Assembly (NCBI RefSeq): GCF_000003815.2
Contig: NC_049983.1
Span: 23,793,852-23,857,851 of the forward strand
Source of the DNA: Branchiostoma floridae
Lineage: Eukaryota > Chordata > Leptocardii > Amphioxiformes > Branchiostomatidae
Reading direction: 5' to 3'
DNA: 64,000 nucleotides
Below the pieces are notes generated by a model. It searched no databases. It worked only from the letters and a program-made list of their open reading frames with translations, and was not told where the DNA came from. The stretch's first letter is position 1. Each line of letters begins with the position of its first letter. The position numbers were made by a program, and so were the translations under genes. Of this stretch, positions 3,063-26,809 are shown in pieces.

Positions 3063-3353
3063 GTGCAAGTTACTAGTAGTGACTCAGTGTGTGAACGAGT
3101 GTCACGCAGTCCAGCATACTAGTAGATGACCAAACAAAATTCAACTTGATCTTAAAGGAATTTTTCTTCAACCTACTTTTTTCCTCAATTAATGCGTGAA
3201 GCTCAGATGTACTTGCAAATACCACCCAATCCGATTTGGAAGACACAGTCCCAGTATATATTACTTATTATATATGATAATTAGTACTGTACAAAATCTA
3301 CTTATAACTTAAACATAAAGGGTTTTGTTTGATATTTCTTCTCTCTTTTGCAG

Positions 3354-6533: not shown

Positions 6534-6646
6534 AGATGGACCTGGACACGTTCTTCAGGGCTGTAAGAGAAGGTGACGTGCAGACTGTGAGGAGGGGACT
6601 GGAGGCTGGGGTGGACGTCAACGCTAAGGGGCGCTCCTTTCCATGG
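6534..6646 (+). CDS. Paralog A exon 1: start exon, first ankyrin-like helices
   Basis: Acceptor CCCCCAG, then AG, then ATG at 6536; ends TGG before GTAAGG. Encodes MDLDTFFRAVREGDVQTVRR and on to GVDVNAKG, which looks like an ankyrin repeat cap (FFRAVREGDVQTVRRGLEAG). The AG before the ATG means that, if an upstream exon is spliced on, it must end in phase 1. Sister exons are at 40420 and 55273. Confidence 0.75.
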
Positions 6647-9600
6647 GTAAGGGTACTGATACTACATTGATCAAACTAAAGGTGGGAGTTCTTATGCATC
6701 AATATCAATTTATGTGATTAACGTTTTGATGGAATGGTGACAAGTCGTTCCTTCTTTTTTTATCTGAACAATATATTGTGTCAATACTATATTAGCTGTT
6801 GACCATTGATAGCCTGGCTTGATGATAATGAAAATTGTTAACTGCTGAAAAGGTATTCCAATGTACATTGTTATGAAATGTATTTTGAACCAAACTGCCA
6901 GCTATATTCAGCAGTGTAATAAATAATTACCTAATAAACTCGGCACAAAAAGTTTGGAATATTAACTTTGACTGATCATATTTCCGTTGTTTCTGCATCA
7001 ATTACATGTAGAATGTTTTATACATCAATAGAAAGCCTGTGTGATTTCCTTCCATATGGTATCAAGCTCCTTCTGATTATAAATTCTCAGAACGAGCACC
7101 AGGTCTACTTACGTCAGTGGGTCACAAAAAAAAAGTTTCAATTTTTGTGTTCAACTCTTTATCATCCTACTGATATGGGTGCGGTGTCAAGGATTCAATC
7201 TATCCTTTTTTACGTAATCTTTTGCATAAAGAACATTCAACTTTATCTTTAACATTTGATAATAGTATACGATTGTGCGCTTTTGGCTGTTGGGTGACCG
7301 AATCGAGGTGTGGAGGCGGCAAGGAGAATGTCACGCTGACTGTCGCACGGATAGAGCGTAACACGGCGTAGCGCTTGGTGTGGTGTATGTGTGTGTATTA
7401 ATCCTGCCACAGGAAACACAAGGTTCACTGTCATCCTAGACAAGACAACCTCAATGCTGTGAGATACAGGGACACCATTCCCCATTCAGTCGCAATGTCT
7501 TCCCCCTTCAATATGGGGTCGAATGACATTCTGTTAGATTACACCGCCCGTCCACGCACATAGTCTGCAATGGTCCTTATTTTGTGTGGACAGGGGTTGT
7601 AGTCTAACACTATGTCTTGCAGAATTGCATTTGGTCCCCCACAAAGGCTGGGGAGGTATGACATTGTGACTGCATGGAAAATGGTGTCCCTGTATCTCAC
7701 AGCATTGAGGGTGTCTTGTCTGGGATGAGGGTCAACCTTGTTTTTCCTGTGGCAGCCATAAATACACCTCACTATGACACTGCCTCCACCAAGCGCTACA
7801 CTGTGAGTCAGCGTGGCATCCGCACCTTGATTCAGTCATGCAACCGCCAAAAGGGCACATATACTATTCTAAAATGTTAAAGATAAACTTTGATTTTCTT
7901 TATACGAAAGATTACGTGAAAATAGGATAGATTGAATCCTTGACATCCACACCCATACCAGCAGGATGATACAGAGATGAACACAAAAATTGAAATTTTG
8001 GCACTTTTTTTGGTGTCCCACTGACGTGAGTAGCCCTGGTGCTCGTTTCATGAATTCATAATCATAAGAAATTTGATACCATATGAAAAGAAATCACACA
8101 GGCTTTCTATTGATATATAACACATTAAAATTGATACGGAAACAACGGAAATATGATCAGCCAAAGTTAGTATTCCAAACTTTTTGTGCCGAGTTAATGT
8201 AATTCTGACAGGAAACTGCAGACTTGTAAGATATGATATGATTTAGAGTGAGAGCATCTCTATGCAGAAATTTAATGTCAGCAAACAAAGCAGAAATTAT
8301 TTCAGACATACCCAAATGAGATTTACTGTGCCTGACACATGGTTAATCTGAAACCACCGTCAAGGTGTAAGGAATCCAAGACCAACATGAAAGTGAATGT
8401 GACATGGCACAACGCCACTGATATTTACATAAAACATTTTGTGACACTGATAGCATTCAGGCATGACTTCTACAGCAGGGTTAATTTTGTTAAAGGTCAC
8501 AATAATGGACATAACTTACATGTAGTTAAATTTTTCTGATACCTTTTGTATTGATACAAGATATGCACGCCTCATTAACAAGAAGAAACTTGAAGGTATA
8601 AATGAACCATTATTCAAAAATGTTTTGAAAATTATCTCTAACTTTTGAAATGAGAAACTAATTACTATTTGATGACACGTTTGTACTTTTTCATAGCATT
8701 TTATTACAGTATACTGACTGTCTGTGGGCAGACATCTTGTAATCCTAAGTTATTGTGACAGTCCCAACTTTTGTTCTATCAAGCCTAACCAGACATCCCT
8801 GCATGTAGCCAGCGAGTACGGGCAGACTGAGGTAGCAGAGCTTCTGATAAAAAATGGTGCTAACCTGGAGGGGAGGAACGGGGTAAGTAGCTATAACCCT
8901 GCTCTCATTTTTCCTGTGACAGTGTATACCGGGACAATGGTGACCATGATGATGTCACAACACTCACAACATTGATAGTCATCTACTAAATCAAATGATC
9001 CCTTCCAAGAAAAAGTCTGTTGTATATAAAGGCATTTTGTCACTAAGTTTTTTTTCATATTCTATAAATGAATGAATGAATGAATATTCCTTCTGTGGCT
9101 TCCCGACCAACACACATAGACTTACTACTTGAATGTGCATAATGTACATAATCATTCCCAAACATCGCAATATTGCAGAATAATAGTAAAAGCACCAGGT
9201 CCTGTTTCAAATGTTAAAAATGGACACACTTCTGCGTTTTTTGACTTTCACCTACTAGCCAGTTGTGCATGTGGATGTTATCCAAGTCAGTGTTGCAATA
9301 TATTATATAGTAAACGTAATACTAAGGCTACATGAATGACTATTCCATGATTTACTATCATCTACAATGTATGCACGCAGCGGTTGGTGCAGAAGATTGT
9401 GACCTTTTTATCATATGTTCTTTTCGCACTCCCCATGCGCTAACCTCTGCTGCATGCTTCAAAGGGCCACACTTAAAATGTTACACAGAAGAAAACAAAT
9501 ATTTTTACTAAGTTAAGTACTCTCTGCCATCTACCTTATTTTATCAAACCAATGATTAGAAATACTTTTGATATGATCTCTAACATTTGAAGTGATTCAA

Positions 9601-12600
9601 AATTATATTTGAATGTATTAATTTCAGTCCGCGTTTGCGCTTTTTCAGAGCATTTTATGACAGTATACTTGTCTCTTGGCAGTCATATTGTAACCGGTTA
9701 CTGTCCGAACTTTTGTTCTATCCAGCTTGACCGGACACCCCTGCATATGGCCAGCAAGTACGGGCAGACTGAGGTAGCAGAGCTTCTGATAAAAAATGGT
9801 GCTAACCTGGAGGCGAGGGACAGGGTAAGTAGCTATAACCCTGCTCTCATTTTTCCCGACTTTTAGCAGGACAAAGATGCCCATGATGGTACCCCTATCA
9901 CAATACTCACAACATTAATATCAATCTACTAATTATCCCTTCCAACAAGTCAGAGATAACCTTGACGCTATTGTTCTGGAGCAGGTGTAATTGACTTGCA
10001 ACAAGGCATTTTGTCACTGAGTTTCTTTTGTATGAGAGTCTTGTACCCAGTGCTCCAGGACTTCCCCTGGCACACACATTATAATGTTCACAACTGTATT
10101 ACAGTGTAGTAAAATGATCTGTTTTCAAATTGACAGTTTCAGTTGTACAAACATCCCCCATGAATTCACTGTTTCACTTTCACTTACCAAGTCGCGTGTG
10201 TAGATGTCACTCATCAAATCAAGTCAGTGTTGTAGCTAGTATTATATGCTACGTGAATGAGTCTTCCATATTTTATCACTAAAGGCATTACAGATTCTGA
10301 AGTGTTTTTTTATTTACATAATGGTTATCAAGTAACAAGAGTCTTTACAAGACCCGAAGGCCACTCCAAGGTTATGGGTTACATTTTGCAAACATTTGGT
10401 TAAGGTGTAAATTTTAACTCTCAATGTACTGTGTTGTTTTTTGTAACGTGTTTGTCTTATGACGCAAGGAAGACTAGCGATACATTGAATTTACTTAACT
10501 TGAAAGTTCATCTGTGTTGAGTAGAAGTCATTATTGAGTCAAACTGTAATATACAACACAAAATTGTACTCACCCAAATTTTCGACTGAACGGCACCATT
10601 CTTTTGTATTTACATTGTACTGACAAATGGAGATCCTTTGAATAAACAAATTAGCATATTTGCTTACAATGAAGACGTGCATACATGTAATTGGGTGTAA
10701 AGATGGGCATTGGTGTCATGTTATGACTAAAATATATCATTTACTACATCCTCTCTGTCATCTGTACATACAGTTCCAGTACACACCCCTCCATAACGCT
10801 GCTGCTGGGGGCCACACCAGGACTTGTGAGCTTCTGATTCGCCCTGGAGCTGATGTTATGGCCAAAGATAAGGTGATTTATATTTGTTTCAACAAACCTT
10901 TATCATATAATTTATTTTCTATGAATGGTACCAGTCCTCACCCTTGCATCTGGCTGCTGCATGGGCGTATGACGGGACGGCGTCATACTCGGGAATTGTG
11001 GGCGAAGTCTCGTGAGCACTACTGCGAGACGCCGCGAGATCTGAGAAGAAGCACAGCAGATCTCGAACAAACTGAGAAAGAGAAGGACGTGCTCCGAACT
11101 CTTCCGCTTACCACCGTCTTTTCCGCGCCATTTCGAACACCGCCGAACAACTTACCTCCTCGACTCCTCCTAAATTATCTCCCTACATCTTTACCCTTTT
11201 GACTCCCCCAAATTTCTCCCCCTCGTAAGAATGTTTGGTGCCGGCCGGAGAAAGATTCGCCCCCCAGCCCGTTTCGTCTCGTCACCGGCCGAGGACGCCG
11301 AGCTTGAGTGGCATTCCACGCCAGCAGAGCTGTCGAAAAGGCTGGAAGACGAGCTTTTGGATGTGACCCGCCAACTGGAGAAGATGAAAGCAGACCTCGG
11401 CGCCGATTTGGAGAGGGCCGGCAGAGTTCGCACCCCCCTCCCCACCACCACACCGGAAGACGCCGACGGAGGTCAAAGGTCTCCCATCCCAGAAATCCCA
11501 GCGCGAGTTAAAGATGGCCGCCCGGAAGTGCACACAAGGGCGCTGCGTGAGAGCCCAATCCTCCCGTGAGGCAGAACTTTCCGACTTTGCGGGAGGTTCG
11601 GGCCTTTCAGCAGCTACAGAGTGACCCTACAGAGTCTTCCCGGCACATTCCAAGATATACCAAAGCGGAACAGTGGGGCGCAGCGGGCATCGAGGGCCAC
11701 CCCCCTCCCCCCAAGTACAACACTCAGCAAGTCCAGGAAGGCCTCCCACCTTCACAGCAAGGTAAGAAACTTACAAGCGGCCTTGCCAGGAAAGCGCATG
11801 ATAGAGTTGTCAGAGAGGTTAGTTGGCCTCATGAATATGTTTTTTCGGCCACCACCACCGTCACTTATGACTCATTGACCTACGACCAGTTTGTTGCCGG
11901 AGAAATGTCCATTATTCTCAGTGCCCACACCCACCCGACAGAAAGCCGGAACAGGGGACACATCTTGAGGGGACTCATGCTGGACGTGCCCACTTATACC
12001 TTTAGGGGTGTTAAGAACTTTTTCAAGATTTTGCTCATACACGTTGAGCACGGCCTAGTGAACATCGACACTAACACCACACTAGCCGAAGTGTACAAAC
12101 TAAAAGAAGATCATCTGCGGCGGCCGTCGTCGGAGATGGAGCAGGGTCATGCACACGGCGGTCCCCAGCAAGCAGCATCCACCGAGAGAGCTCAGTCCAC
12201 GCAGCACATACTGCTACAGGTATCAGGCCAATACCTGCTCCTTTGCCACCAACCACATCTCAGCGTTAGGCACACTCCACGTACACGCTTGCAAGTTCTG
12301 TTCCAGGAATAGGCCAGAAGTGGATGCCAGCCACCCCGCTAAGTTCTGCCCATTCAACAGAGATAGGGGAAGACAGAGCGGACACTCAGCAAACCGTGAC
12401 AGTTCCTGACTAGACTCGGCTCACAGCAGGCATCGGACTTCCCCGGTAACGACCTTGACCGCAACTACAACCAAAGCGCAACAAGCAAGCCCAGTTTTAC
12501 GAGACTCCTCTTGCAAGCTATCAAGACCTGTCATGAGAGGTACCCACACCCACGACGCTGCTTCGAAGCCCTCACTCGTATCGACGGCGAGCAGCTATGA

Positions 12601-15600
12601 CAAACAGCGCGCTCTAAAGCCCTCACCAACTCAGACGGCGAGCCGCGCTCCCCCTCAAACCTCTCCAAGTAAGATGGCAGGCATGTACCATGCCCTACCC
12701 AAGCCCTACAGAGGCTCAGTACCGGCCTCGCACCCACGGTATCGACACAGGCGACACCCGCAGTGACTGACTCACAGCCTCATCAGCAAGGCGCCCCGTT
12801 CCTCCAAGCCCCCAGGGTCACTAAGCACACACACCTGCATGACGTCATTCACGCGTCAGGTCAGTACAACTTCCGTGGTTTGCGTATCCCGTTACAAACC
12901 CACCTCAACATTCCAGCGTGGCGAGCTTCCTTGGAACATTACGTTGATAACGGTATTGTGGAATTCCTTGAATTTGGTTGGCCCATTGGTTTTGACTCGC
13001 TGTACTTACCTGTGTCTTCCAGACGGAACCACAACTCGGCCAACACCTACAGCGCCGCGGTCGACCAGTACGTCAACAAGGAGGTGACACTCGGAGCCAC
13101 GCAGGGCCCATTCCGCTTACCGCCCTTCGGCAACGACTTTGTTGCATCTCCCCTCCAGACCGTACCGAAAGGCGACGAAGGTGATAGGCGGGTAGTCGTG
13201 GACTTGAGCTTCCCGCCAGGGTCATCGGTCAACGACGGCATACCAGCGAAACAGTACTTGGGTCATCCACTCCACTTCACCCTCCCCAGCCACGAGGCCT
13301 TCGAATCCTTGATCAGGCGCAAAGGCCCAGGCTGTCAGTTGTACAAGCGTGACCTGAGCAGGGCCTATCGCCAGATACCGGTAGACCCTTATGATTATCA
13401 TATGCTCGGATTTACCTGGCGGGATAGCTTTTATTTCGATATTGTATTTCCGTTCGGGCTGCGCTCGGCGGCCATGGCGTGCCAAAGGACCACCAACGCC
13501 ATCTCCTACATCCACGCAGCACAAGGCTACGAGTGTGTGAACTACATAGACGACTTCGGGGGCGCTGAGACTCCAGACGAGGCAGAGCAGGCCTTCCAGT
13601 CCTTGGGTTCGACTTTCCAACACCTCGGGCTCGAGGAGTCGGTAGAGAAGGCCACCCCGCCTTGTACGAACATGACTTTCTTAGGCATCGGTTACGACAC
13701 CTTAAAGATGACAAAAAGCGTGACCCAAGAGCGCTTAGCTGATACACTTCTTGAATTGGACGTCTGGCTAGGCAAAACGAGAGCAACCAAACAGGAGATA
13801 CAGGTACTCCTTGGGAAACTGGCATTTGTGGCAATATGCGTCCAGCCGGGCAGGGTCTTTCTGTCGCGCATTATCACCACATTGAAGGGCCTTCGCAGAC
13901 AGCATCATTGAACACGGCTCTCCAGCGACTTTAAGAAGGATGTGCGCTGGTGGCGTACCTTTCTGCCAGAGTTTAACGGGATCTCCTTGATTAAAGACCC
14001 GTCACGTCGCACTTTACCCGACACGCCGACCACGGATGCCTGTCTCACCGGTTGCGGCGGCACCTTCAATCGTCAGTACTTTCACTCAGCCTTCCCGACA
14101 GCGCTTGTGCAACAAAAGCATACGATTCATCGCCTGGAGATGTTAGCCATCATCGTGGCGTGTAAGGCCTGGGGCGAAGACTGGTCGGGTTGCACAGTGC
14201 GGATCGCTTGCGACAACGAACCGTCCGTGCAAGTAATCCTGACAGGCCGTTCCACGGATACGTTCATGCAGGCATGCGCCAGAGAATTGATTTACCTTCA
14301 AGCTCGTTACGACTTTGCACTCTCTGCCTACCACATTCCTGGTGAGACCAACAGACTAGCGGACGCCTTGAGCCGCTGGCACACAAGTCCGAGTTACCAG
14401 CGTCAATGGCAGACTGCAACTGCTGATGAGCTGTGGAACGAAACTTTAGTCCGCCAAGAGTGGTTCGACTTCACTCACGCGTGGTAGAATAGAAGCACGT
14501 TTTAGCACCTCTCACCTGCACCTGACCTTGTTTCCATTCTCACACCACAGGTGATGCCTGGACTCTACTTGAACATGACACCCTGCGCACCCAGCAGCAA
14601 GCTTTTGCTGCTTCCACGCGGGCGAACCATCAGACCCAGTTCCGAGCTTACATCGCATTCTGCAAGTTCTTTGGGAAGGTGCCCATTCCAGCGTCGGCCC
14701 ACCTCTTGTCATGCTACGCTCAGTTCTTGAGTCGCTCACTCAAGTCACCAGACACGATCGCACATTACCTCTCAGCCGTGAAGTTACTCCACCAACTTCA
14801 CGGCCACTACCAGTTCAGCCTCCAGCAATTTGAACTCCAGCAGACTCTCCGCGGCCTGAAGAAAATCCTACGGCACCGCCCCAAAGGGCGTCACCCCATC
14901 ACCCCAGAATTCCTCTTAAAAGCACGGGAGTTCCTCAACTTGAATACTTCAAAAGACGTTACCACCTGGACAGTCTTATTGATCGGTTTCTTTGCCTACC
15001 TACGAAGATCAAACCTGGTGCCCACGACCGCGAAAGCTTTCGATAACACCAAGCACCTTCAGCGACGAGACATCCTGTGCGTTAAGGAAGGCCTTCTCAT
15101 TCAGAACACTTGGTCTAAAACTATTCAAGCTAACGAGAGAGACCTCGTAGTTCCCATCCTGGCGATCCCAGGTTCTCCGCTGTGCCCCGTGGTAGCTTAC
15201 AACAACATGCTACAACTCTGCCCAGCGCCACCCGATGCGCCGGCCTTCCTCTTCCCACCAACCGCCCGGCGTCGGCACCGGCCAATGACTGCTTCTACTC
15301 TCACCAAAGAACTAGCTCGTTTAGTTAAGCAAGTCGATCTTCCGAAGGGCTACCACACGCTGCACGATCTACGCCGTGGCGGATACACCCTGGCTTTCGA
15401 GGCTGGCGTCCCTCGAGAGCTACGAAAGCAACACGGTGATTGGAGATCGGACGCTGACCTGCTCTACCTCCGTCCATCGGTTGAGCAACGTCTACGTGTA
15501 CCGGCAGCCATGCGGCATCTCATCCTGCAGCGCATGTAAGCAGCTCTCCACCAACCTCGGAGTCTTCTTGGCCCCTGCGGATTGGCCTGTGACATCCTGT

Positions 15601-18600
15601 GTTTGTACGATATTGTACACGAAACAGCTTACAAGACTGAGTAAAGATGTCACTCGCCCAATACGACTCCTGGTGATTGACTGAGTGTGAACAATTATGG
15701 GCGTATGACGGGACGGCGTCATACTCGGGAATTGTGGGCGAAGTCTCGTGAGCACTACTGCGAGACGCCGCGAGATCTGAGAAGAAGCACAGCAGATCTC
15801 GAACAAACTGCCAACCGCCACCCAACAACGTCCTTCAGAACTCTCGATCTCAGTAGTTCAGTTCCGTAGTTTTAAAATTCACAACTTAGTTTAGTCTCTG
15901 CACCACTTAGATATTAGCCTTCTTTTAGCCTTTTCCCCAAGTCTCTCGATTGTTTTGTATGACTAGCATAGCCCTTCATGTGCAGTCAGAGCTAGAAGTT
16001 GCACCTTGTCACAGCATTCAGCTCTGCTCAGGTCCCAGATTGACGGGCGAGAGAGATAAACTGTAGTTTTCCTCCAAACTGTCATCGTCATCGAGAGCCT
16101 ACCTGTTTTATAGCCATCTCGTGGCCTGTTATCGTTAGTGTTAAGGTCGCTCTGTACGTCGAGCAGTACCTCGTTTAGCGCTCAACTGTATTTTACCATG
16201 AATTGTACTATTTTAACGAGAGCCTCAACATTTTACGGCCACTTCCCGGGCCCTGTAATTGTCATTCGTTAAGTTCGTTATGTACGTCAAAGGCTACCTT
16301 TTCTGTACTAGTTCGTTTACGCCTAGCGTTCTAGGCTAGGCCTGTGACATCCTGTGTTTGTACGAGATTGTACACGAAACAGCATACAAGACTGAGTAAA
16401 GATGTCACTCGCCCAATACGACTCCTGGTGATTGACTGAGTGTGAACAATTTGGAGGGCACACTGAGTTGCTAATTTGTTCTGGAGCTGATGTTATGACG
16501 AAGGATGGAATAATTAGTTTAACTTATTTTTAAATGGACCTTATTAGATTCAGATATATGGATGTAATTGTCGTCTTCTGTAATGTTACATTGAAGTTTA
16601 CACAAGAAGAATGCATCATGTAACAATAACACTGACTCAAAAACAACATGGATAATCTAAACTCATTAACTCAATAAACTCTGAATAGTTGTTATCAAGT
16701 TGGGCATTGGCAATGTTATGTCATTAACAGGACTACTTACCATGTCCGTCCTGCACAGGACCAGTCCACTCCCCTGCATAAAGCTGCTGCTGGGGGCCAC
16801 ACCGGGACTTGTGAACTTCTGATTCGTTCTGGTGCAGATGTCAGAGCCACAGATGAGGTCACCGTGACATATATTTGTATAGAATAAACATGTTGATACA
16901 TATTATTTTACAGCGTAATTCGTGCAATTATCCGGGTGGAGCAACAATGCAAGTTATCCAGCTGGAGGCAACTATCAGGGATTTTAAGATTCCGTGCAAT
17001 TAACAGAAGTGTGCCTTAATCAAGCACCGCTGTGAGTCTATACTGGTTTCTTTAGCTGCCAAGTGGACACCAAAAATATAAAATTTACTGTGTAAGCCTT
17101 ATTTCTAGACAAACATCAAAGCTAGTCCAACTGTGAGGAAGAAATTTCAATTTGTAGATTAAAAATACTTACATTGAAGGGACTTTGTTTTAATTAGACA
17201 TTTTGAAAACCATTAAAGAAAAGACTCATAGACTCATTTATCAGCTCCATTTCAAATATGGACCCCACATTTAAACTCTATGGACCTAATATTTGTCTGC
17301 TGTGATTTTACAATGAAGCATACATGTAACAATCACACTCACTCAAAATCTACATGGATAATCTAAACTGAATAACTCAATAAAATGTAAATACATTATT
17401 AAGTTGGGCATTGGCAATGTTATGTCATTAACATTACTATATACTTCAAGTCTTACAATGTCCATCCACACCACACAGGACCAGTCCACACCCCTCCATT
17501 ATGCTGCTGCTAGGGGGAACACCGGGACTTGTGAAGTTCTGATTCGTGCTGGAGCCGATGTCACAGCCACAGATAAGGTGATATATATTTTTTTCAAACT
17601 AACACGTGAATACATGTTATCAAATGCAAAGTTGCAGTGTTGGTGAAGTTACGTTATCCGTTGATACATGGCGTAAATTACCATAAGGCTGATACGAGAG
17701 GGATGTTCGCCAGGCCTCCATCTGGGTGAATCACCAACACCAGACAGAATGGTTTGCACCGTTGCACACCGGGACATGCCCCTACTTTTTTTTTTCGAAA
17801 GGTGTGGTGGGCTCTTGCACGTGCGTGATGTGTGGCTCTTCTCAAATACGGGACATCCATTTAACGTCCTATCAGAGGGACAGCCCTAGCCAAAATTACT
17901 TATTATTACCTGAGTCAAGTCATGAAAGTCGTGAGCCCAATGCATCACAGATTACTCCACCCAATCACACATTTTTCACAAGATACATTGCTATAATTTT
18001 TGCTTACTTAAGTTTGTTTCTTGGCAAGCTGATTTGTTGCCTGCTCCAGTCTGGATAGACTATGTTTTGGTTTGTAACAGCAAGATATCAAATGCATCTT
18101 TCATGTTAACTTTACAGGAGGGGAAGACTCCATTGGATTATGCAAGGGATCCGGAGATTCTACGGCACTGGAAGGTAAACCACTTAGTAGCCCGAAACAC
18201 TTATCCATTGGTACAATGATTTGATGCCTCTATCTGGTGCACTCTGATTACTGACAGCAGGATAATAGTAGGTGTGGCTTAGTGTGCACAGGATGTTGCA
18301 TGTATTTACTACCAGCTACCCTGTTGCTTTTTGGGAAGACTGTGATATGCTATTCATGATAAAACATTATTTCTGTTCTCTCAGAACCTGGACAAACAGG
18401 TGAAACAAGAGAAGTCTTACCACGAGCTGCTGCAGATGTCAGGGGGAGTGAAGGTCAACAGGTTTAAGGTGTTTGTGGGAGGGAATGAGACAAATGGGAA
18501 GTCTACTCTGAAACAAAGTCTCACAAAGGCACGTTACATATTCTTTATCATGATTGTTCAAATCCTATAATTAAAGAGAAACACATGCCATATTCTATCA

Positions 18601-21600
18601 TTAACAGTTTAACAGTTACTGTTGCTCTGAACTATAACTTGTTGATTTATTGATTTATTTAGTAATATTCATTTTTATGATAATATTCATACTTGTCTTA
18701 TCATTTTCATACCAATTGTATATACCAATAATTACGACCTTATTTTAACACACTAGGGCCTGCTGTCTGCAGTGATGCAAAGACTCTCCCTAAGGTCGGG
18801 GGACGCACCTTACAATCGTACCCCAGGGGTGGATATTGGAACATTCCAAGTACCGGGGGTGGGGGAGGTCAGCGTGTGGGACTTCGCTGGGCAGGCGGAG
18901 TACGCGGTGACCCACAATATGTTCATGGATTCAGAAAACACCGTCTTCATTGTGCTGTACAACATCAAGGACGACAAAAAAAACCAACAAAATCAGGTTC
19001 AGATATACTTTTTTTTTGTATGAAATGGGACTGGGACATTTTCATATTATTTATCTGTTGTGTGGCAGCTGTATCTGTTCAGCATCAGAATTGGTCAATT
19101 ATTGGCCTACCGATGACACAAGCCTGCTAATTAAGGGTTAATGACCCACCCCAAGGTGTATATCGTGTCATAACGCCTGGTCCTTTGCTATAACCACTGA
19201 ATAAAACCACCTCGTTCGAAAATTTGGTGGTTATAGCAAAGGACCTGGCGTTATGACACCATGTACACCGAGGAACAGGTGGGTCATTAATGTTATTATC
19301 ATATAGCCTACCCAAACTTGCAAACTCCTGTATGATGCATAGATCCCTTTGTACGATACGTGTAAATGCCTTTGTCGAATTTCTGAAAATTCAAATTAAA
19401 TTTTGTTCTTTGGTACATACATTTGTAAGGAGATTACAGATTGCATTTTTAAACCAAAATATCCACAGAAAATATTCGAATCGAAACATTACAGTCTTTG
19501 GCTGTTTAGAAAAACAAAACCCATTAGCCATTTCCTCTGCAGTCTGTACTTATTCCCTCTGCTCTGGCATATGTTTCGCTTCTTTTGATTGGCCATATAC
19601 CTTACTTTCTTGTGTGTGTCGGTGCCGGTGCCGGTGTTGATGCAAATCGACACCGGCGCCAGTGTCGATTCATTCTGACCAATCAGAGGAGCGATACACA
19701 TCAGCCTGGCCAGAATCTATGTTTTACGGCGTCATAACCAACATGGAACGGGGCCTACTGATTGTCCGCGGCGCCTGGCTATATGATAATGTAGCTGACA
19801 TATCGACAAATGATATGCTAGATGTAGGCCATGTGTAATGAAGGAATGTGGAACTGGTGTCGAAAATGATCACAGACGCACAAGATCTGCCGTGGCCGAG
19901 AACCGATCTTTATTCTTCACTGTCACATCCTCTCTCTCTGTCCCAACTCTCTGAACTGAACCTCTCATCCCTGGTGTTCCTTCTTTTTATCTCTTAGCTG
20001 GGTGCTGACGTAAACAAAACAAATTCTTCCCACATGTACTTGACAGGTCATTAATTAACTGTGATCGCCCCTTTGTTCTTCCTTATCTGATCTACTGGTC
20101 AGCTAAAATACAAGATGTTTATCTGTTTCTGTTAATTTCTGAGAAACCTTCCCAAGAATCATTTTAAACAGATGTTGTCAATATGGGCTCTATTACACAT
20201 GCATGCACTTCTAGCACTCAGTGTCTTATGTTTTTTGCAAGCCATTATTGTCAGCCCTATTTGACCTCCCTCTGCTATTTGCAAAATATCTTACAAGGAA
20301 AGGCACAGAAATAGATGATATTTATTTCTAGTTTAAATGGTCTAGATATTACAACATATTCTGACCCATTAATCTTAATCCTGCTGCACAGGTTCACTGG
20401 TGGTTGTGTTTCATCAAGTCCTGCAACCCGAACCGGCAGCCTGACGTCATCTTGGTAGCTAGCCATGCGGACAAGGTTGAGCCAGCCACAGGTAAGAATA
20501 GCAGAACAGAGTAGTTGTTAACTATTTATTCAACATGACAAAATACATATTGTAAATCTTACAGTATGAGTATAGAGATATTTGCAGTGCTTACTTTCTC
20601 CTCTGAAGTCTTAATTTCTATCATAAGACCTCAGATGCACTTGACCACTTTGACTTGAATGTAATTTGTTATGACTGACGTGTATACTTCTTACTATTAC
20701 TTGTCAATGAAACATTCACTCTGATACGTTTGTGAAGATTATACATCCAGGAATATAATGAATAGATGAAAGTTGAATCTCTACTTCTGGATAAATCAAA
20801 TTTAATTCAGACGTTTCAAACGACCTCCGTCGTTCTTCTTCAGTGAAATAAAAATAAAAGTTTACAACTCTGCGGAATAAGGAATACTTCTTACGTTCTA
20901 AATAAACAAAAAAGGTAACGGCTAAGGTGTTCTAAAGTAAACATGGTAGGTAACTACAGAGGTGTTCTAAACAGTGTTCTAAATAAACAAAAAGGTAACT
21001 GACAAAGGTTCTGTGATACATTCTAGCAAAATAAGAAAGGCTAACAAGTGATATAACGTACATTCGTTTTCTTTAGATAACACAGACATTTTAGACAGAG
21101 AACCACGTTGGTTTGAAAGGGGGGTTAAGGAAGCCATTTACGAGCGCATTTATCGTCCATCTCTCAATCGAAAGGGGGGGCTGAGAACTGACCTTTCCAG
21201 TGCTTGGAATGATGTTTTAAAGTAAATGATGGTTTTATTGATATATAGACACTTATTATCATTATATCCCTTGTTAGCCTTTCTTATTTTGCTAGAATGT
21301 ATCACAGAACCTTTGTCAGTTACCTTTTTGTTTATTTAGAACACTGTTTAGAACACCTCTGTAGTTACCTACCATGTTTACTTTAGAACACCTTAGCCGT
21401 TACCTTTTTTGTTTATTTAGAACGTAAGAAGTATTCCTTATTCCGCAGAGTTGTAAACTTTTATTTTTATTTCACTGAAGAAGAACGACGGAGGTCGTTT
21501 GAAACGTCTGAATTAAATTTGATTTATCCAGAAGTAGAGATTCAACTTTCATCTATTCATTCACTCTGATATACAGGACACCTCCAAGCGGCCCTTGTTG

Positions 21601-24600
21601 TTCAGACGATGAAAGCAGAGTTCAAAGACCACCTCCGTATCGCAGATGAAGTGATCCTGATGGACTGTAGGAAGACTTGGACACCTGAGATGGACCAACT
21701 CAAAACTCTTCTGGTCAAGATAGGAGAGGAAATGCTGCAAGTGAGGATAGAAAGTTGCAACTTATATTGTATTGTGCGTTACAGTAAGTGATGGTCTAAT
21801 GAACAAAACAAGGGAAATTCTTTGGCCGTAAGAACTGTGGGAGCAAGATATCACTTAATATTTTAATATTTTGATACAGCAGTGTGCTGTATCATCCCTC
21901 AGTCTGCCTGTCTCTGTCTATCTCGCTGTTTTTCTGTTTTTATCTTGAAGTTCCTAAAGACTAATGCAACTCTAACTGACATGCCCTTCCCCAGATTTGA
22001 ACCATTTTATTCCAACACGTATTCCAACATGAAAGAAACGTTTTCAAAATCTAATACCCACTAATAGTAGTTTTGTAACAAAGTTTTACTATCTTTTAAA
22101 CATAATTTGTTCTTTCATGATAGAATTATTTGTTACATTTTGGGTCAGTGGGCTGGAAAAATAGCATTTCACACGTAAATTGTGTACAGGGACACATGCA
22201 TGGCCGTCGTGCATTGCTAGCTGAGCACAAAAGAGCTGCCAGTGTCTAGGAGTGTTGATATCTGGAGTATACAGAAGCAGACAGGTGGGCCAGATGGCAT
22301 ACTTTTATGGGGGCAATAACCCAAATGTACCAGCTGGAAAATGTTGCAACATTTTGTAAATTCCAATATAGTGAAAGAATCACATTGTACCCACCATGGC
22401 TGACCTCGTGCCCAAAAGTTGCCATTTCTTTTAAATATTCAGTTAAAAATTAGTACAAATATCATCTAAAACAACTTGAAGTGGACACTACCCTTGTCAT
22501 GTACCACTTGCTGTTCACAAAACAATAGCACCAACGCGACATGCCCCGGCTATGTGCAAAGATCATGGAGCACCTACCAAAGTGGTGTAAGAAGACTAGT
22601 CCGAAGTTCCCCGTGATGATGTGGCCTGACTACGTGAGAGAAGCCAGGAAGCTTGACAGACTTGTGACTGAAGACTTTCTCAAGAAATCTTCAAGATTCT
22701 TGCACCATCTGGCAGAGGTGAAATATTTAATATCAAATACAATTCAATGACCAACATTTTAAACCCCATCATAACTAGGGATTGGTACCGGTACAGAAAA
22801 TCCAGGTCCAGAGGAACAGGTCTAGCCTCTGTCAGGCTTCGCGGATCGATGGCCTGATAATGAAATTGGACATGATAAAGAGTCAATAGTATGGGCGGCC
22901 GGCCAGAGTAGTTATTTCCTCACCCCTGATCCGTGGAGCCTGGTAGAGGCTAGAGCCGGACGTGAACCTGGAGCTGATTTTTTTGTGAAAACTCGTGAAT
23001 GAGTGATACTCAAAACAATAGTCAATTTTGCTACAAAGGATTCTGTTTGATTGCGTACCCAAAATCTACGGAAATTTTAAAATGACTTAATTTTCGCTGT
23101 TATCTTAAACCTGTTTGACTGTAGAAATTTGGTAAAAACCTGTGATTATCTCGCTCTTGCTGTTTTCTTGGACTGGTAAGCCCAAAACACGTGAAAATCC
23201 CTGCTGGTATAATATATTCATTTTTTCAAATCGGTCGAAAATCCCATTCAAAAACAGTTTTGTACCGGTGCCCACCCCTAATCATTAATTGTAATTATTT
23301 TTATATAATTAATTATTAATTATACCCTTCATTTAGGCAGTGTACTAACTTAGTTTTAGGTAAATGTAAGTTATAGATAAATAAATATCAGCGCATCAGG
23401 TAATGCTAACTTTGTAGGGTAACTGTAAACTCAACCATTTTATCTACATGTAGTACCAAACATGAAAAGAAGCACCATAACATAATTGCATTAGACAGTC
23501 CATTTATTCTCAACGCAGGTTCTGTTAATCAGTCTGGCAACCTCTGACCCCATCATTGTCCTGAAGCCCAACTGGCTTGGCACAGACGTCTTCGGCAAAG
23601 TCATGGCACCTGACTTCTTTGACAAACACCTAAACAGAACAAGTGAAGACTACGTCACCAAGGCTGAGATCGAGCGTGTGTTCCAAGATGTTGCTGACGT
23701 CGATCTTGTGATCGCCCTGCTGCAAGAGTTCCAGCTCTGCCACACCTTTGACGAAGAGACCTACATCATCCCAGGGCTGCTGAAACAAAACATGCCCGAC
23801 AAGGTGTGGAAACCGACGACAGAACAAAAGGTGGTCTACTTCGGGAAGCAAGTCCAGTGTGCGGACAAAACCGATATGTTCTCATCTGGGTTCTTCCCCC
23901 AAGTGCAGACCCGCCTGATGAGGCAGCTGAAGTATCGCCCGTCGCTCTGGAGAGATGGCGCCAAGTGTGTGGACAGGGATGTGGAAGGTCTGATCAAACT
24001 CTCTCCGGACGGCCGTGCAGTCAGCATCTGTGTGCGGAGTGTGCAGGGTGACAAGGTGCAGTGTGGCAAGATGCTGCAGAAGCTGAAGAACATCATCGCT
24101 GATGTGCTCTATGAGTGCAGCCCAGGAACAGGAACAGTAGAGAGGGTGCTCAGTGCTCGTGCACTAAAAGAGCACAGGGAGGAATTCTACTCCTATGGCA
24201 TGGAGGAGATCAGCGAGGCAATAGCAAAAGGCGTTCCAGTTGCCCATCCAATACTTAAGTTCACAGAAGAGGTCAGCAAACTGTTGAGTAGGGATGAGGA
24301 TCCAGAGCTTGAGGGCTCAGGTATGTCTTATTCAATTGTTAAAATAAATGTAACGATACTCACAGTTTTACGTGCAAGAAGATATTGATGATCAGCACAC
24401 GAGGTATAATTGTGCATTTTGGCATCTGTTTTTTGTCCCCTAGGTGCAGCAGCACCGCCCAGCGGAGGTGGAGAGCAAGACAGTCATTCAAAGTCACAGA
24501 CCTCTCATCAGATTACCACAGCTCCACATGGAAGCAGAACCAAAGCTCCTATGAGTCTTCAAGGTAATCATATGGATGTATGACTAATGACGTACATGTA

Positions 24601-26126
24601 TCTATAGCAGATGGCAGAACAGTTATATGAGGGAAATAAGTATACTGTCGACATAAACTGTTTTAATATCTTCTTTGTACTTTTCCTTAAAATTTACAGT
24701 GTTTGAAACCAGTAAATTATTAGGGTGTGATCAGTCAACAGACACTGTGTATTAATGTAAGTTCAGATTTCTACAGATAGCCAACATCTGTTCATTACTA
24801 TCTGTAAGCATTTATATACATATCTCCAAGTACATGTATGTATGTCTTTAATTTTCTCGCAGAATAATAAAATTCTTTGTTATCAGTCTTTGTTTTCACC
24901 TTCCTTCAGGTCTTAAAGTACCGATAGTGTTGCTGATCAACGACGAGTATGGGACCTCCAAGGGGGGGATTTCTACTATCAACTGTCAGGTAGGCCAAAT
25001 GCTGTTCGAAGCAAACGCAGTCGTGTACTGCACAGCCCTGCTTGTGCCGAAACAAGACCAGGAGGCAGCCGATAGAGACGGTGTTCAGCTGATTGGGCCA
25101 GATCTTATGGGTAAGACCGAGCCAACTTTAGATTGGCTGACCTTCTACCACAGTGTCCACTTTCCAGACCTCCCCAAAGACGTCACCTGCATCATCGGCC
25201 ACGCAGACATCACAGATACGGCGGCACGAAACATCTGGGATCAACGGTACCCACAGGCAGACCTTGTGACGATCAACCACGTCCTACCCGAGGATACAGA
25301 TTACTACAAGGGAGGTCGGAAGGCCATGAAGGCTGGAGAGAAAGTGGCGGACATGCTGGATAAGTCTAATAATGCAAAGGCAGCTTTCTCAGTGGGTAAA
25401 CGGATTTACGATGACTTTGACACCAAGTACAAAGGAGAGAAGAAACCACAGAGCCACCACATCTTCCTCCCAAAGCCATCCAAGATGTTCCTGGCCATCG
25501 ATGTGAAACCCGAAGGAGAGCAGAAAGTTGTCCTGTCCATCGGCAGAGTGCGGAAGGTGGAGAAGCTGAAAGGTCATGACCTCATAGCTCTGACCATGAG
25601 AGAAGTGGTGAAGGTGATCAAGAACGCCCGGTGGTGCGTGCGCGGCATCAACGAAGGTGACTTCGAGGCGATCAAGAAGATCCTAGAGAAAAGTGGCTAC
25701 CTGAATCCAATCCTCCGGCCGTACGGGACACAGGAGGACATTAGGAGCGACATGATTAAAGCCCATCTGGTCCTGATGCCGTCCCGCTCTGAACCGTTTG
25801 GGCTGGTCGGCCTGGAGGCCATCGCGGCGGGCATCCCCGTCCTCATTTCCGACAAGACCGGCCTGGCAGAGATGATCCTCGACCTGATCGAACAAGGGAA
25901 GCTCCACCCGGACCACAAACGTGTCATCGTCGAGACAAATGTAAACGACACCGATCCAGCGGGAGACGTAAGTAGGTGGGCAGACAGGATCGTGGACATC
26001 CTCAAGAACACTGACTCGGAGTTCGAGAAAGCTGCCCAGTTCAAGCGGGAGCTGGTGGAGTCCAGGTACTGGGAGGAATCCCAACGCACCTTCCTGCAGG
26101 CCTGTGGCATCCCGGCAGAGCAGTAG
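6536..26126 (+). CDS. Paralog A: ankyrin-Roc-COR-glycosyltransferase gene
   Basis: Sixteen exons join in frame: 6536-6646, 8784-8882, 9726-9824, 10774-10872, 16759-16857, 17479-17577, 18118-18174, 18385-18528, 18757-18996, 20392-20491, 21577-21740, 22529-22717, 23519-24320, 24444-24563, 24910-26126 (stop TAG). Total 3639 nt, 1212 aa. (Fifteen coding intervals plus the 2-nt leader of the first exon.) Order of domains: N-terminal helix-pair, five full ankyrin repeats, a half repeat, Roc GTPase (P-loop GNETNGKST, DFAGQ, SHAD), COR, a polar linker, and a GT4-like glycosyltransferase. Ankyrin-Roc-COR order is known from DAPK1; a glycosyltransferase after COR is not an architecture I recognise. All exon phases agree and every key motif is present, so it looks functional. 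Whether it is expressed is unknown. The start at 6536 is chosen because the upstream exons are broken in this copy. Confidence 0.8.
6938..8195. mobile_element. 1.26-kb palindromic Tc1/mariner-like element
   Basis: The two halves are inverted copies of each other around a centre near 7565. The outer ends read CTCGGCACAAAAAGTTTGGA and its complement. The minus strand at 7772-7539 encodes a decayed Tc1-type transposase stretch (YRDTIF, GPNAILQD, CPHKIRTIADYV), including the region of the second catalytic aspartate. It is inserted where paralogs B (45744) and C (55665) have uninterrupted sequence. An element of two joined inverted ends without an intact transposase gene would be non-autonomous. 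Confidence 0.8.
8784..8882 (+). CDS. Paralog A exon 2: ankyrin repeat, type I
   Basis: A 99-nt exon, phase 0 at both ends, encoding exactly one 33-aa repeat: PNQTSLHVASEYGQTEVAEL then LIKNGANLEGRNG. The TSLHVA and GQTEVAELLIKNGA motifs are classic ankyrin. The acceptor is CAAG instead of the CCAG in sister exons but keeps AG; donor GTAAGT. Confidence 0.85.
9726..9824 (+). CDS. Paralog A exon 3: ankyrin repeat, type I
   Basis: A 99-nt phase 0-0 exon, one repeat (LDRTPLHMASKYGQTEVAEL then LIKNGANLEARDR). Acceptor TATCCAG, donor GTAAGT. The flanking intron is closely similar to those of the type I exons in blocks B and C, so these exons arose by copying of exon plus intron. Confidence 0.87.
10774..10872 (+). 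CDS. Paralog A exon 4: ankyrin repeat, type II
   Basis: A 99-nt phase 0-0 exon, one repeat (FQYTPLHNAAAGGHTRTCEL then LIRPGADVMAKDK). Donor GTGATT, which marks the type II exons. It is followed after about 55 bp by a relic ankyrin exon, as in block B. Confidence 0.86.
10961..11074 (+). repeat. Ngaro split direct repeat A1
   Basis: Identical over 114 bp, as far as I can see by eye, to A2 at 15697-15810. It forms the left end of the element and begins ATGGGCGTATGACGGGACGG. Confidence 0.92.
11231..12409 (+). pseudogene. Ngaro-like element: Gag-like ORF, frame-broken
   Basis: Starts at ATG 11231 (MFGAGRRKIRPP) with a short charged helix (KRLEDELLDVTRQLEKMKAD). The frame changes near 11566 and again near 12150. 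The last part holds a Cys/His cluster (CYRYQANTC ... HVHACKFC ... HPAKFC), which fits the zinc-binding end of DIRS/Ngaro Gag proteins. Either two frameshifts or unrecognised introns break it. It would package the element's RNA. Confidence 0.7.
12763..14487 (+). pseudogene. Ngaro-like element: reverse transcriptase-RNase H with one in-frame stop
   Basis: One frame with a single TGA at 13909-13911. The first part is a reverse transcriptase: RRVVVDLSFP, LYKRDLSRAYRQIPV, FGLRSAAMACQ, and the catalytic box NYIDDFGG. The second part is RNase H with the acidic residues in TTDACLTGCGG, HRLEMLAII, CDNEPSVQ and NRLADALSR. The family normally makes this as one protein, so the TGA probably inactivates this copy. 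Confidence 0.88.
14552..15539 (+). CDS. Ngaro-like element: tyrosine recombinase
   Basis: Open from about 14552 (DAWTLLEHDTLR) to TAA 15537-15539. The catalytic set R-HxxR-H-Y is visible: FAYLRRSNL, YHTLHDLRRGG, KQHGDWRS and LLYLRPS. It would integrate a circular DNA copy. It is in a different frame from the RNase H; the sequence just before it (TCTCACACCACAG) looks like a splice acceptor, so it may be reached by splicing. No SGNH hydrolase domain, which some Ngaro elements carry, is seen. Confidence 0.85.
15584..15810 (+). repeat. Ngaro split direct repeats B1 (15584-15696) and A2 (15697-15810)
   Basis: B1 and A2 abut exactly. B1 matches B2 (16339-16451) apart from about two substitutions; A2 matches A1. 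This junction is the internal template for rebuilding the element's ends in the circular intermediate. Confidence 0.92.
16339..16451 (+). repeat. Ngaro split direct repeat B2 (right end)
   Basis: 113 bp, ends TGAGTGTGAACAATT directly against the relic ankyrin exon. Between A2 and B2 lie 528 bp without an open frame. Confidence 0.9.
16759..16857 (+). CDS. Paralog A exon 5: ankyrin repeat, type II
   Basis: A 99-nt phase 0-0 exon (DQSTPLHKAAAGGHTGTCEL then LIRSGADVRATDE). Acceptor CTGCACAG. The donor reads GAG then GTCACC, weaker than the usual GTGATT, so this exon may be spliced inefficiently; skipping it would leave the frame intact. Confidence 0.78.
17479..17577 (+). CDS. Paralog A exon 6: ankyrin repeat, type II
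   Basis: A 99-nt phase 0-0 exon (DQSTPLHYAAARGNTGTCEV then LIRAGADVTATDK), acceptor CACACAG, donor GTGATA. Corresponds in position to C exon 59031-59132. Confidence 0.85.
17700..17975 (-). mobile_element. SINE-like repeat, copy 1
   Basis: Related to 59500-59830 (same intron of paralog C) and to 32290-32610. In the C copy the minus strand begins with a tRNA-like region with A-box (TGGGTAGCGTAAT) and B-box (GGGTTTGATTCC) patterns. Being in the same intron of A and C, it was inserted before those copies split. Confidence 0.55.
18118..18174 (+). CDS. Paralog A exon 7: terminal half ankyrin repeat
   Basis: A 57-nt phase 0-0 exon encoding EGKTPLDYARDPEILRHWK, the capping half repeat (GKTPLDYA). 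The match in C is 59959-60015. Confidence 0.83.
18385..18528 (+). CDS. Paralog A exon 8: start of Roc GTPase, P-loop
   Basis: A 144-nt phase 0-0 exon. After a short helix (QEKSYHELLQ) the strand VNRFKVFVGG leads into the P-loop GNETNGKST (G1, phosphate binding) and helix LKQSLTK. The intron that follows starts with GC (GCACGT), as it does in paralog C (GCAAGC), so a GC-AG intron is conserved here. Joining to exon 9 gives an unbroken SLTKGLLSAV helix. Confidence 0.87.
18757..18996 (+). CDS. Paralog A exon 9: Roc GTPase, switch regions
   Basis: A 240-nt phase 0-0 exon. Contains the G2-like TPGVDIGTF and G3 VWDFAGQAEY (DxxGQ), then the strand ENTVFIVLYNI. The glutamine after DFAG is typical of Roc/Rab-like GTPases. 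Acceptor CACTAG, donor GTTCAG. Confidence 0.88.
19138..19290. mobile_element. 153-bp foldback (MITE-like)
   Basis: Two arms of about 60 bp (TTAATGACCCACC ... CTTTGCTATAACCA and its inverse) around a short loop. It could form a long hairpin in the RNA of the intron between exons 9 and 10. Absent from the same intron of paralog C. Confidence 0.7.
19295..19790. mobile_element. Possible non-autonomous element with 14-bp inverted ends
   Basis: ATTATCATATAGCC (19295-19308) is inverted at 19777-19790. Inside is a GC-rich hairpin near 19615-19670 (GGTGCCGGTGCCGGTG / CACCGGCGCC). No open frame recognised. Weakly supported. Confidence 0.35.
19834..20197 (-). mobile_element. Solo LTR, 364 bp, minus strand
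   Basis: Begins TGTAATG and ends CTATTACA, i.e. TG...CA with inverted TGTAAT ends. It is flanked by a 4-bp target duplication CATG (19830-19833 and 20198-20201). The minus strand has AATAAAGATCGG in the position of a polyadenylation signal, so the LTR lies antisense to the host gene. No internal region remains. Confidence 0.8.
20392..20491 (+). CDS. Paralog A exon 10: Roc GTPase, G4 region
   Basis: A 100-nt exon, phase 0 in and 1 out. Encodes VHWWLCFIKSCNPNRQPDVI then LVASHADKVEP; SHAD stands where Roc domains have a T/S-H-x-D guanine-specificity motif. In paralog C the same place reads SNAD. Donor GTAAGA. Confidence 0.86.
20727..21557 (+). mobile_element. Penelope-like element with inverted arms
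   Basis: Arms of about 290 bp (roughly 20757-21050 and 21267-21557) are inverted copies. Between them 21076-21225 encodes the last 50 codons of a Penelope-type GIY-YIG endonuclease (EPRWFERGVKEAIYER, PSLNRKGG, stop TAA). Each arm holds a hammerhead-like core (right arm 21475-21508). A 14-bp target duplication CATTCACTCTGATA lies at 20713-20726 and 21558-21571. The right copy ends only 5 bp before the exon 11 boundary, so the element supplies most of the sequence upstream of that acceptor. Confidence 0.83.
21577..21740 (+). CDS. Paralog A exon 11: end of Roc / Roc-COR linker
   Basis: A 164-nt exon, phase 1 in and 0 out. Encodes AALVVQTMKAEFKDHLRIAD then EVILMDCRKTWTPEMDQLKT. ILMDCRK fits the last strand of Roc. 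Acceptor ATATACAG lies in the right target duplication of the Penelope-like element; donor GTGAGG. Confidence 0.85.
22529..22717 (+). CDS. Paralog A exon 12: start of COR
   Basis: A 189-nt phase 0-0 exon. Encodes HQRDMPRLCAKIMEHLPKWC ... VMMWPDYVREARKLDR ... SRFLHHLAE. The WPDYV and FLHHLAE stretches match the start of COR domains (helices before the winged-helix part). The C version has one more codon. Confidence 0.85.
22776..23280. mobile_element. hAT-like non-autonomous element, 505 bp
   Basis: Ends are inverted: TAGGGATTGGTACCGGTAC on the left and GTACCGGTGCCCACCCCTA on the right. Flanks ATCATAAC (22768-22775) and ATCATTAA (23281-23288) look like an 8-bp target duplication with two changes. 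No transposase frame. Confidence 0.75.
23519..24320 (+). CDS. Paralog A exon 13: COR domain
   Basis: An 802-nt exon, phase 0 in and 1 out, 267 codons. Contains the COR hallmark LKPNWLGTDVFGKVMAP, then VADVDLVIALLQEFQLCHTF (winged helix) and IIPGLLKQNMP, and the beta-rich C-terminal half (SICVRSVQG). COR mediates dimerisation and couples to Roc in LRRK-type proteins. Ends in an acidic stretch (SRDEDPELEG). Acceptor AACGCAG, donor GTATGT. Confidence 0.9.
24444..24563 (+). CDS. Paralog A exon 14: polar linker
   Basis: A 120-nt exon, phase 1-1, rich in Ser, Gln, His and Pro (APPSGGGEQDSHSKSQTSHQ). Likely disordered connector between COR and the glycosyltransferase. In paralog C the linker is encoded differently, as a continuation of the COR exon. 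Confidence 0.75.
24910..26126 (+). CDS. Paralog A exon 15: GT4-like glycosyltransferase domain, stop
   Basis: A 1217-nt exon, phase 1 in, encodes about 404 aa and the stop. N-terminal half: VPIVLLINDEYGTSKGGIST, the glycine-rich acceptor-side loop of GT-B enzymes. C-terminal half: LSIGRVRKVEKLKGHDL (G-R...K-G), LVLMPSRSEPFGLVGLEA with the E-x7-E donor-binding motif, AAGIPVLISDKTGLAE, and ESRYWEES. All usual GT4 landmarks are present, so an active sugar-nucleotide transferase is likely. Acceptor and donor substrates cannot be told. It is the C-terminal effector of the ankyrin-Roc-COR protein. Confidence 0.9.
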
Positions 26127-26137
26127 AGGTGTACCAA

Positions 26138-26809
26138 AGTCCTCCAAGATATTCCTGGTCACCAATGTGAGACCTAGGGTATAGCAGAGGGTCGTCCTGT
26201 CCATCGACAGGGTAAGGAAGGTGTCAAAGCTGAAAGTTCATGACCTCGCCGCACAGGCCATGGGGGAAGTAGGAGAGAGGATCAAGTACGTCCGGCTGCG
26301 CGTGCGCGGCATCAGTGAAGATGATGTCGAGACAAGCAAGAAGATCCTGGAAGACAACCTGAACAGCGACAAGCTCAACCCCACCCTTCTACCTTACGGA
26401 ACACAGGAGGAGGTAAGGAAAGACATGATGACAGCCCACCTGGTCCTGATGCCGTCCCGCTTTGAGCCGTTCGGACTGGTCGGCCTGGAGGCCATTGCCG
26501 CTGGCATCCCCGTCCTCATCTCTGACAAGACCGGCCTTGCAGAGTTGATCCTCGACCTGATCAAAAATGGGGATCTCAGCGCAGAGCACAGGAACGTCAT
26601 CGTGGAGACGAACGTGAATGACTCCGATCTTGCGGGAGACGTAAGGAGATGGGCAAGCAAGATCGTGGACATCCTCGAGAACAGTGACTCGGAGTTCGAG
26701 AAAGCTGCCCGGCTCAAGCGGGAGCTGGTGGAGTCCCGGTACTGGGAGGAATCCCACCTCACTTTCCTGCAGGCCTGCGGCATCCCGGCCGGAGCAACAG
26801 GTCAGTAAG
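26138..26809 (+). pseudogene. Partial tandem copy of the glycosyltransferase C-terminal half
   Basis: Matches 25466-26126 from PKSSKIF through GRVRKV to the terminal CGIPA. One in-frame TAG near its start separates it from any upstream frame; from about 26190 to the stop at 26807-26809 it is open for over 200 codons, and the E-x7-E motif (FEPFGLVGLEA) is kept. Most differences are silent or conservative. A possible acceptor (TATAGCAG before AGGGTC) would allow use as an alternative last exon, but it lacks the N-terminal half. Either a recent dead copy or an alternative 3' exon. Confidence 0.7.

Follow-up and report, generated by a model that had tools for sequence, protein, structure and literature searches.

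An ankyrin-Roc-COR protein of a lancelet with a GT4 glycosyltransferase in the output position, in a gene array whose sister genes carry CARDs

By rebuilding a gene from the genome of Branchiostoma floridae, we find an ankyrin-Roc-COR protein that ends in a complete GT4 glycosyltransferase and lies in an array where neighbouring sister genes carry CARDs in the place of GT4. This replacement suggests an immune-type receptor with exchangeable outputs. A ROCO receptor with a GT4-conflict output, in an array with exchangeable outputs, is the explanation that, taken as a whole, we favour by a modest degree. The window, that is, the whole stretch of 64,000 nucleotides analysed here, corresponds to C5:23793852-23857851, and the genome searched holds 513,431,437 bases in 431 contigs.

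Gene 1, its neighbours and its domains

Gene 1 (6536-26126, + strand), as rebuilt from the window sequence, has 15 exons whose 3639 nt form a single open frame encoding 1212 aa, in the order ankyrin repeats (five full), Roc, COR, linker and complete GT4 glycosyltransferase. The fifteen coding intervals of the initial annotation are thus borne out as one reading frame, with AG at all acceptors, 13 GT donors and one GC donor. GT-AG borders are found in 13 of the 14 introns; intron 8, inside the Roc domain (donor after 18528), is GC-AG. Exons 2-6 measure 99 nt each, are in phase 0 and encode one 33-aa ankyrin repeat apiece, and the repeats in exons 1 and 7 are partial. The start methionine (6536) aligns to residue 1 of the relatives P0010, P0023 and P0028. 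The features of gene 1, followed by two further features of the array, are:

6536..6646, +: exon 1, start Met and first ankyrin-like unit (MDLDTFFRAVREGDVQTVRRGLEAGVDVNAKG...); P0010, P0023 and P0028 align from residue 1; absent from the NCBI model P0001
8784..8882, +: exon 2, ankyrin repeat, 33 aa (gene model, Pfam)
9726..9824, +: exon 3, ankyrin repeat, 33 aa (gene model, Pfam)
10774..10872, +: exon 4, ankyrin repeat, 33 aa (gene model)
16759..16857, +: exon 5, ankyrin repeat, 33 aa (gene model, Pfam)
17479..17577, +: exon 6, ankyrin repeat, 33 aa (gene model; NCBI P0001 starts at 17458, just upstream)
18118..18174, +: exon 7, half ankyrin repeat and connector (gene model)
18385..18528, +: exon 8, Roc, P-loop GNETNGKST at 18481-18507, then the GC donor (gene model, PDB match)
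18757..18996, +: exon 9, Roc, DFAGQ at 18880-18894 (Roc match 5e-8, gene model)
20392..20491, +: exon 10, Roc with SHAD, which we take to be its G4-like motif (gene model)
21577..21740, +: exon 11, end of Roc (gene model; identical in P0001)
22529..22717, +: exon 12, start of COR-A (gene model, Pfam)
23519..24320, +: exon 13, COR-A/COR-B (Pfam, genome COR matches)
24444..24563, +: exon 14, 40-aa linker, phase 1 at both ends (gene model)
24910..26126, +: exon 15, complete GT4 (GT-B), phase-1 entry, stop TAG (gene model, Pfam, predicted fold); codons for R at 25545, K at 25569, E at 25791 and 25815
26131..26808, +: extra C-terminal half of a GT4 in another frame, TAG at 26182-26184 (GT4 matches)
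46175..63798, +: gene 2, tandem ankyrin-Roc-COR, Roc matches at 60490-62152, COR matches at 62468-63798 (domain matches)

The first in-frame ATG of exon 15 does not come before residue 31, so that an internal start would remove the glycine-rich loop. Because of this cost and of the single frame running through 15 exons, a separate gene for GT4 was thought less likely. The transcript of gene 1 is itself predicted; that gene 1 and its ankyrin-Roc-COR-GT4 architecture are real we hold with high confidence.

In the 1212-aa model, Pfam recognises the ankyrin repeats (E 4e-44), Roc (PF08477, E 3.5e-10, 40.6 bits against a cut-off of 27) and GT4-conflict (PF20706, E 8e-67, 226 bits against a cut-off of 26, positions 1-383 of 385). 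COR-A (E 4e-7, 30.4 bits) falls under the Pfam cut-off of 35.3, as does COR-B (E 0.0024) under its own. The arrangement of a ROCO protein is found, with a Roc bearing a P-loop and DxxG (GNETNGKST, DFAGQ) and a COR directly after it, the latter recognised by E-value and place and not by the Pfam cut-off. In a PDB search the Roc part resembled the solved Roc of LRRK2 (6ojf, 7e-8) and the COR part resembled 3dpu ('Rab family protein', 3e-6), which we take to be the Chlorobium Roco protein. Every element that the initial annotation had read from the letters (ankyrin repeats, Roc P-loop, DFAGQ, COR, and GT4 with G-R...K-G and E-x7-E) is present, COR staying under the Pfam cut-offs. Within 21387-21788, a viral movement protein family matched weakly (E 0.008), which we ascribe to chance.

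DAPK, LRRK and MASL1 are ROCO proteins of animals. Gene 1 shares ankyrin repeats and Roc-COR with DAPK, and its Roc matches LRRK2. The kinase of DAPK and LRRK, in contrast, has no counterpart in gene 1, which has GT4 instead: Pfam found no kinase family, the mark of the DAPK family, in the 1212-aa model (E up to 0.01) or in P0001 (E up to 0.001). The protein is nevertheless named 'death-associated protein kinase dapk-1-like' in the database, which shows that a database name can mask a kinase-less protein. A Pfam scan of the 1212-aa model gave no CARD match either.

Gene 1 is one of three genes of the C5 array (genes 1, 2 and 3) in which COR and GT4 lie 0.6-1.1 kb apart. Gene 2 runs off the window, its GT4 exon (L039) lying just past the edge at C5:23858730-23859953, and has an EAPHGG repeat linker; the COR-GT4 of gene 3 is at C5:23883643-23886332. 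These neighbours bear on the NCBI model P0001 (B. floridae), which starts just before exon 6 and is without exons 1-5. P0001 is 100% identical to exons 6-14 of gene 1, and its GT4 is the exon at C5:23885124, 66 kb downstream, at 100% over 405 aa, against 96% for the window's GT4 exon; its join from exon 14 passes over that exon and a whole gene. Two readings follow: P0001 combines genes 1 and 3 in a chimera, or splicing uses a GT4 exon other than the window's. Should the NCBI join be right, the exon at 24910 would be an unused copy, as the identities of P0001 and the out-of-frame half copy directly after that exon might suggest, but we regard this as improbable. We judge P0001 to be probably a chimera, since the window contains an intact GT4 exon with an acceptor of its own, in the right phase and 346 intron bases after exon 14, and since gene 3 possesses a separate COR and linker next to C5:23885124. 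The skipping of a whole gene also speaks against the NCBI join, as does P0002, from another assembly, in which the exon-14 linker (95%) is joined to a GT4. P0002 aligns to residues 2-1212 of the gene 1 protein at 81% identity, which speaks for the ankyrin exons and GT4 together. P0001 was dropped as plain support for the window's GT4 exon, since it uses C5:23885124 instead. The architecture of the protein holds under either splice choice, as even a correct NCBI join would yield ankyrin-Roc-COR-GT4.

Exchange of outputs and the GT4 domain

Three sister COR exons of the array, at C5:23790756 (which lies 2.3 kb ahead of the window), 23691634 and 24031946, share 77-78% identity with the COR exon of the window, and each is continued by a single open frame through two CARDs to a stop. 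The initial annotation had placed a glycosyltransferase at the output of a GTP switch; the domain order supports this placement, and the array sisters with two CARDs there strengthen it. In a tree of Roc-COR (74 rows), presence versus absence of GT4 requires 8 changes, and the window's Roc-COR adjoins that of P0015, a CARD protein, with starred support. When 70 GT4 domains are placed on a tree, the label ankyrin-Roc-COR has to change 4 times (3 of them forced by starred branches) and the label LRR-Roc-COR 6 times (5 of them forced); both trees are quick ones supported by SH-aLRT only, in which cut models or near-copies of one gene may add changes. P0075, whose body is LRR-Roc-COR, is 77% identical to gene 1 in GT4 and 24% in Roc. 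GT4 is a single terminal exon, and the best acceptor before it under a fixed scoring rule is in phase 1 in 30 of 31 copies, the exception being L010, where a phase-2 site scored slightly higher. With one terminal phase-1 exon, distant Roc-COR bodies and CARDs on three sister COR exons, GT4 behaves as an exchangeable output cassette. The combination expected of a receptor family of this kind, repeat sensor, Roc-COR and exchangeable effector in many copies, is what the lancelet genome contains.

Relatives were sought among the 7993 candidates sharing most words, which were scored; 244 were found and the best 120 of these are listed, all named Branchiostoma. Roc (PF08477) and GT4-conflict (PF20706) occur together in 28 of the 120 in precomputed Pfam assignments, all from Branchiostoma; when the domains of the window served as queries, 26 of the 120 combine a Roc or COR match with GT4, 14 of them having both Roc and COR. 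These numbers of fusions, like the counted changes, could be inflated by relatives that are wrongly joined or cut models. P0002, P0008, P0009 and P0010 cover 100% of query residues 230-1212. Among the listed relatives, the Roc/GT4 builds come with ankyrin repeats, ankyrin and CARD, LRRs, ZU5, OTU, or FIIND and Death, and the order LRR-Roc-COR-GT4 was confirmed for P0075. P0013, P0014 and P0019 have a GT4 match at either end, and Pfam assigns Roc and COR-A to them as well; in P0013 and P0014 the Roc match lies between the two GT4s. It had been stated that Roc-COR proteins of animals end in a kinase, a death domain or nothing. The range is wider than that: among the listed lancelet proteins, Roc-COR comes with CARD, Death, caspase or GT4, and GT4 already figures as a predicted effector in PMC8195603.

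The genome itself holds at least 107 GT4 matches. At least 71 of these are open over 345 or more of the 404 residues and were kept; 36 that were shorter or had stops were left out. For at least 23 of the 71 GT4 exons, the 10 kb upstream contain a COR match on the same strand without another GT4 in between. The controls at that distance, among the matches listed, gave 4 downstream on the same strand and 0 and 0 on the opposite strand. Within 20 kb the numbers, again among the matches listed, are 28 upstream and 14 downstream on the same strand and 1 and 0 on the opposite strand, the 14 downstream matches probably reflecting tandem arrays. These neighbourhood counts use COR alone, with all 84 + 61 rows. 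For 43 of the 71 GT4 exons no COR match lies within 20 kb upstream among the matches listed, so GT4 is not tied to the Roc-COR switch.

The motif G-R...K-G with E-x7-E is, we assume, the catalytic motif of GT4, with R, K, E and E as the catalytic residues. Over 90 animal GT4 rows (one from the window, 59 taken from listed relatives and 30 copies of the same genome, hence partly redundant), R is kept in 87, K in 90, the first E in 89 and the second E in 88, and the histidine of the N-domain in 89; each of the four is kept in 30 of 30 bacterial rows. The dN/dS of GT4 is 0.22-0.38 over 15 pairs of six copies. With both the full-length PF20706 profile and the catalytic motif in the window, enzyme activity is predicted. 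An alternative is that the GT4 of gene 1 is no longer an effector enzyme and serves as a sensor of glycans or sugar nucleotides, or as a scaffold, the output passing through partner proteins as in the CARD sisters. CARD and GT4 do occur together in one protein in the Pfam lists of the paralogs P0005-P0008, P0011 and P0012, in which CARD could be the output and GT4 an extra input, and lectin-like sensors are part of such conflict systems as described in PMC8195603. We consider this unlikely, however. A pure binding domain need not retain both glutamates, and here R, K, E and E persist in 87-90 of 90 animal rows under the dN/dS given above; moreover, the gene 1 protein has no CARD match.

An AlphaFold2 model of GT4 adopts a GT-B fold (pLDDT 83.6, pTM 0.85), with pLDDT below 50 at residues 18-21, 128-137 and 213-219, the first and last of which are active-site loops. 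The top solved structures are GlgM, sucrose-phosphate synthase, glycogen synthase, MshA and BshA, with TM-scores mostly of 0.6-0.7 at 13-17% identity (two MshA chains reach only 0.41-0.43). The closeness of GlgM, sucrose-phosphate synthase and BshA, all metabolic enzymes, could mean that GT4 is an ordinary metabolic glycosyltransferase, joined to Roc-COR by chance or by a wrong gene model and devoid of a defence role. We consider this very unlikely. GT4-conflict is by far the best family, the genes form arrays, the listed relatives join the domain repeatedly to Roc-COR, Death, FIIND, OTU, CARD and caspase, and the GT4 tree demands the repeated changes reported above (4, with 3 forced, for ankyrin-Roc-COR; 6, with 5 forced, for LRR-Roc-COR).

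Proposed mechanism and known systems

In the receptor that we favour, the ankyrin repeats would be the likely sensor, the Roc GTPase with COR the switch, and the GT-B GT4-conflict glycosyltransferase, held by a flexible linker, the output. A ligand on the ankyrin repeats would move a Roc-COR dimer between its GDP and GTP states; this shift would bring the GT4 domain into place or free it; GT4 would then move a sugar from a nucleotide sugar onto a molecule of the invader or the host, and the molecule so modified would be blocked or marked. We infer GTP control, sugar donor, target and defence role from the domains, and give this defence mechanism of the gene 1 protein roughly even weight. As a wider and decidedly tentative proposal, lancelets may possess a ROCO system built on one ankyrin-Roc-COR sensor-switch, to which the shuffling of a phase-1 terminal exon adds either death-type adaptors or a glycosyltransferase, the latter providing GTP-switched sugar transfer against invaders inside the cell. 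We know of no well-studied animal in which intracellular sugar transfer is an output of innate immunity. If the proposal is true, a bacterial logic of one switch and many exchangeable effectors would operate in a chordate, and a concrete set of proteins would be at hand for GTP-controlled glycosylation as an immune output.

That logic has been set out for prokaryotes. In its accessible text, Kaur et al. (2021; PMC8195603) treat GT4 as a predicted effector of conflict systems in animals and bacteria, and report prokaryotic GT4 behind AP-GTPase (Roc)-COR, at least 24 different domains occurring in that place. The same text describes a GT4-TRADD-N fusion in cephalochordates, hemichordates and cnidarians and more than 500 GT4 in Acropora digitifera. 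An accessible part of an article from the same group (PMC7159879, 2020) has AP-GTPases strictly with COR in such systems. To judge from the names, the GT4 of PMC8195603 is the GT4-conflict of Pfam. As far as that text goes, the prokaryotic and lancelet proteins share a repeat sensor, Roc, COR and an exchangeable C-terminal effector that can be GT4, with several copies bearing different effectors per genome; the prokaryotic sensor is an LRR, whereas the lancelet gene belongs to an animal and has ankyrin repeats, introns and CARD as the alternative in the same array. The metazoan GT4 expansions described there involve, by name, the same family, in multi-domain proteins of marine animals. That accessible text, figure 6A and the source data aside, does not name Roc-COR as a partner of animal GT4. 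Brown algal LRR-ROCO proteins are candidate immune receptors diversified by exon shuffling, according to the accessible text of PMC11378527; there the sensor repeats are shuffled, whereas in the lancelet it is the output exon. As whole words, ROC, COR and DAPK are absent from the main text of PMC2575513, which dealt in 2008 with the shuffling of domains in the lancelet immune system. Within the literature searched, figures and supplements aside, no text described an animal Roc-COR-GT4.

Our own bacterial searches recovered no Roc-COR-GT4. At 79 bacterial GT4 loci, no ORF of at least 150 aa matched the window's Roc-COR (phmmer, E 1e-3), a single query that may miss distant Roc-COR. In the phylum of G001, 14 of 296 genomes had COR-A, as did 1 of 4 and 1 of 16 genomes in two further sets, and the 21 bacterial COR loci L120-L140 (flanks of about 1.5 kb; L141 left out) had GT4 in 0 of 21. 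Nine bacterial GT4 proteins that were scanned carried AAA, TPR, TIR with NB-ARC, or no named partner (L041 was left out for its length). The link to bacteria consequently rests on what PMC8195603 reports in its accessible text. Each part is known, and databases already list the combination, though under a name that misleads. Within the literature searched, it appears not to have been described that GT4 and CARD replace each other on the same body inside one array, and comparing these neighbours may show how receptors switch output.

Further copies and repeats

The half copy at 26131-26808 resembles the GT4 at C5:23925554 (91% identity) more closely than the neighbouring GT4 (74%). It was rejected as a part of the protein because of its other frame and a stop, and is probably 3' untranslated or a relic. 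Partial GT4 copies also follow the GT4 exons at C5:23858730, 23885124, 23720756, 23755236 and 23643642. A further COR-GT4 pair of the array, at C5:23753616-23756273, has broken frames (COR split at 23754206; GT4 frame only from residue 58) and is probably a decayed copy.

Intron 4 of gene 1 contains a retroelement (window 10950-16450, bounds set by eye) with a reverse transcriptase at 12673-13908 (RVT_1, 9e-8), an RNase H-like match below the cut-off at 13912-14484 and a further frame at 14526-15536 that has no Pfam match and looks to us like a tyrosine recombinase. Beside it, near 16450-16520, is an apparent damaged ankyrin exon. Long runs of a simple repeat of the THSLTHSL type occupy 2647-3118, 5013-5335 and 38446-38919 (-).
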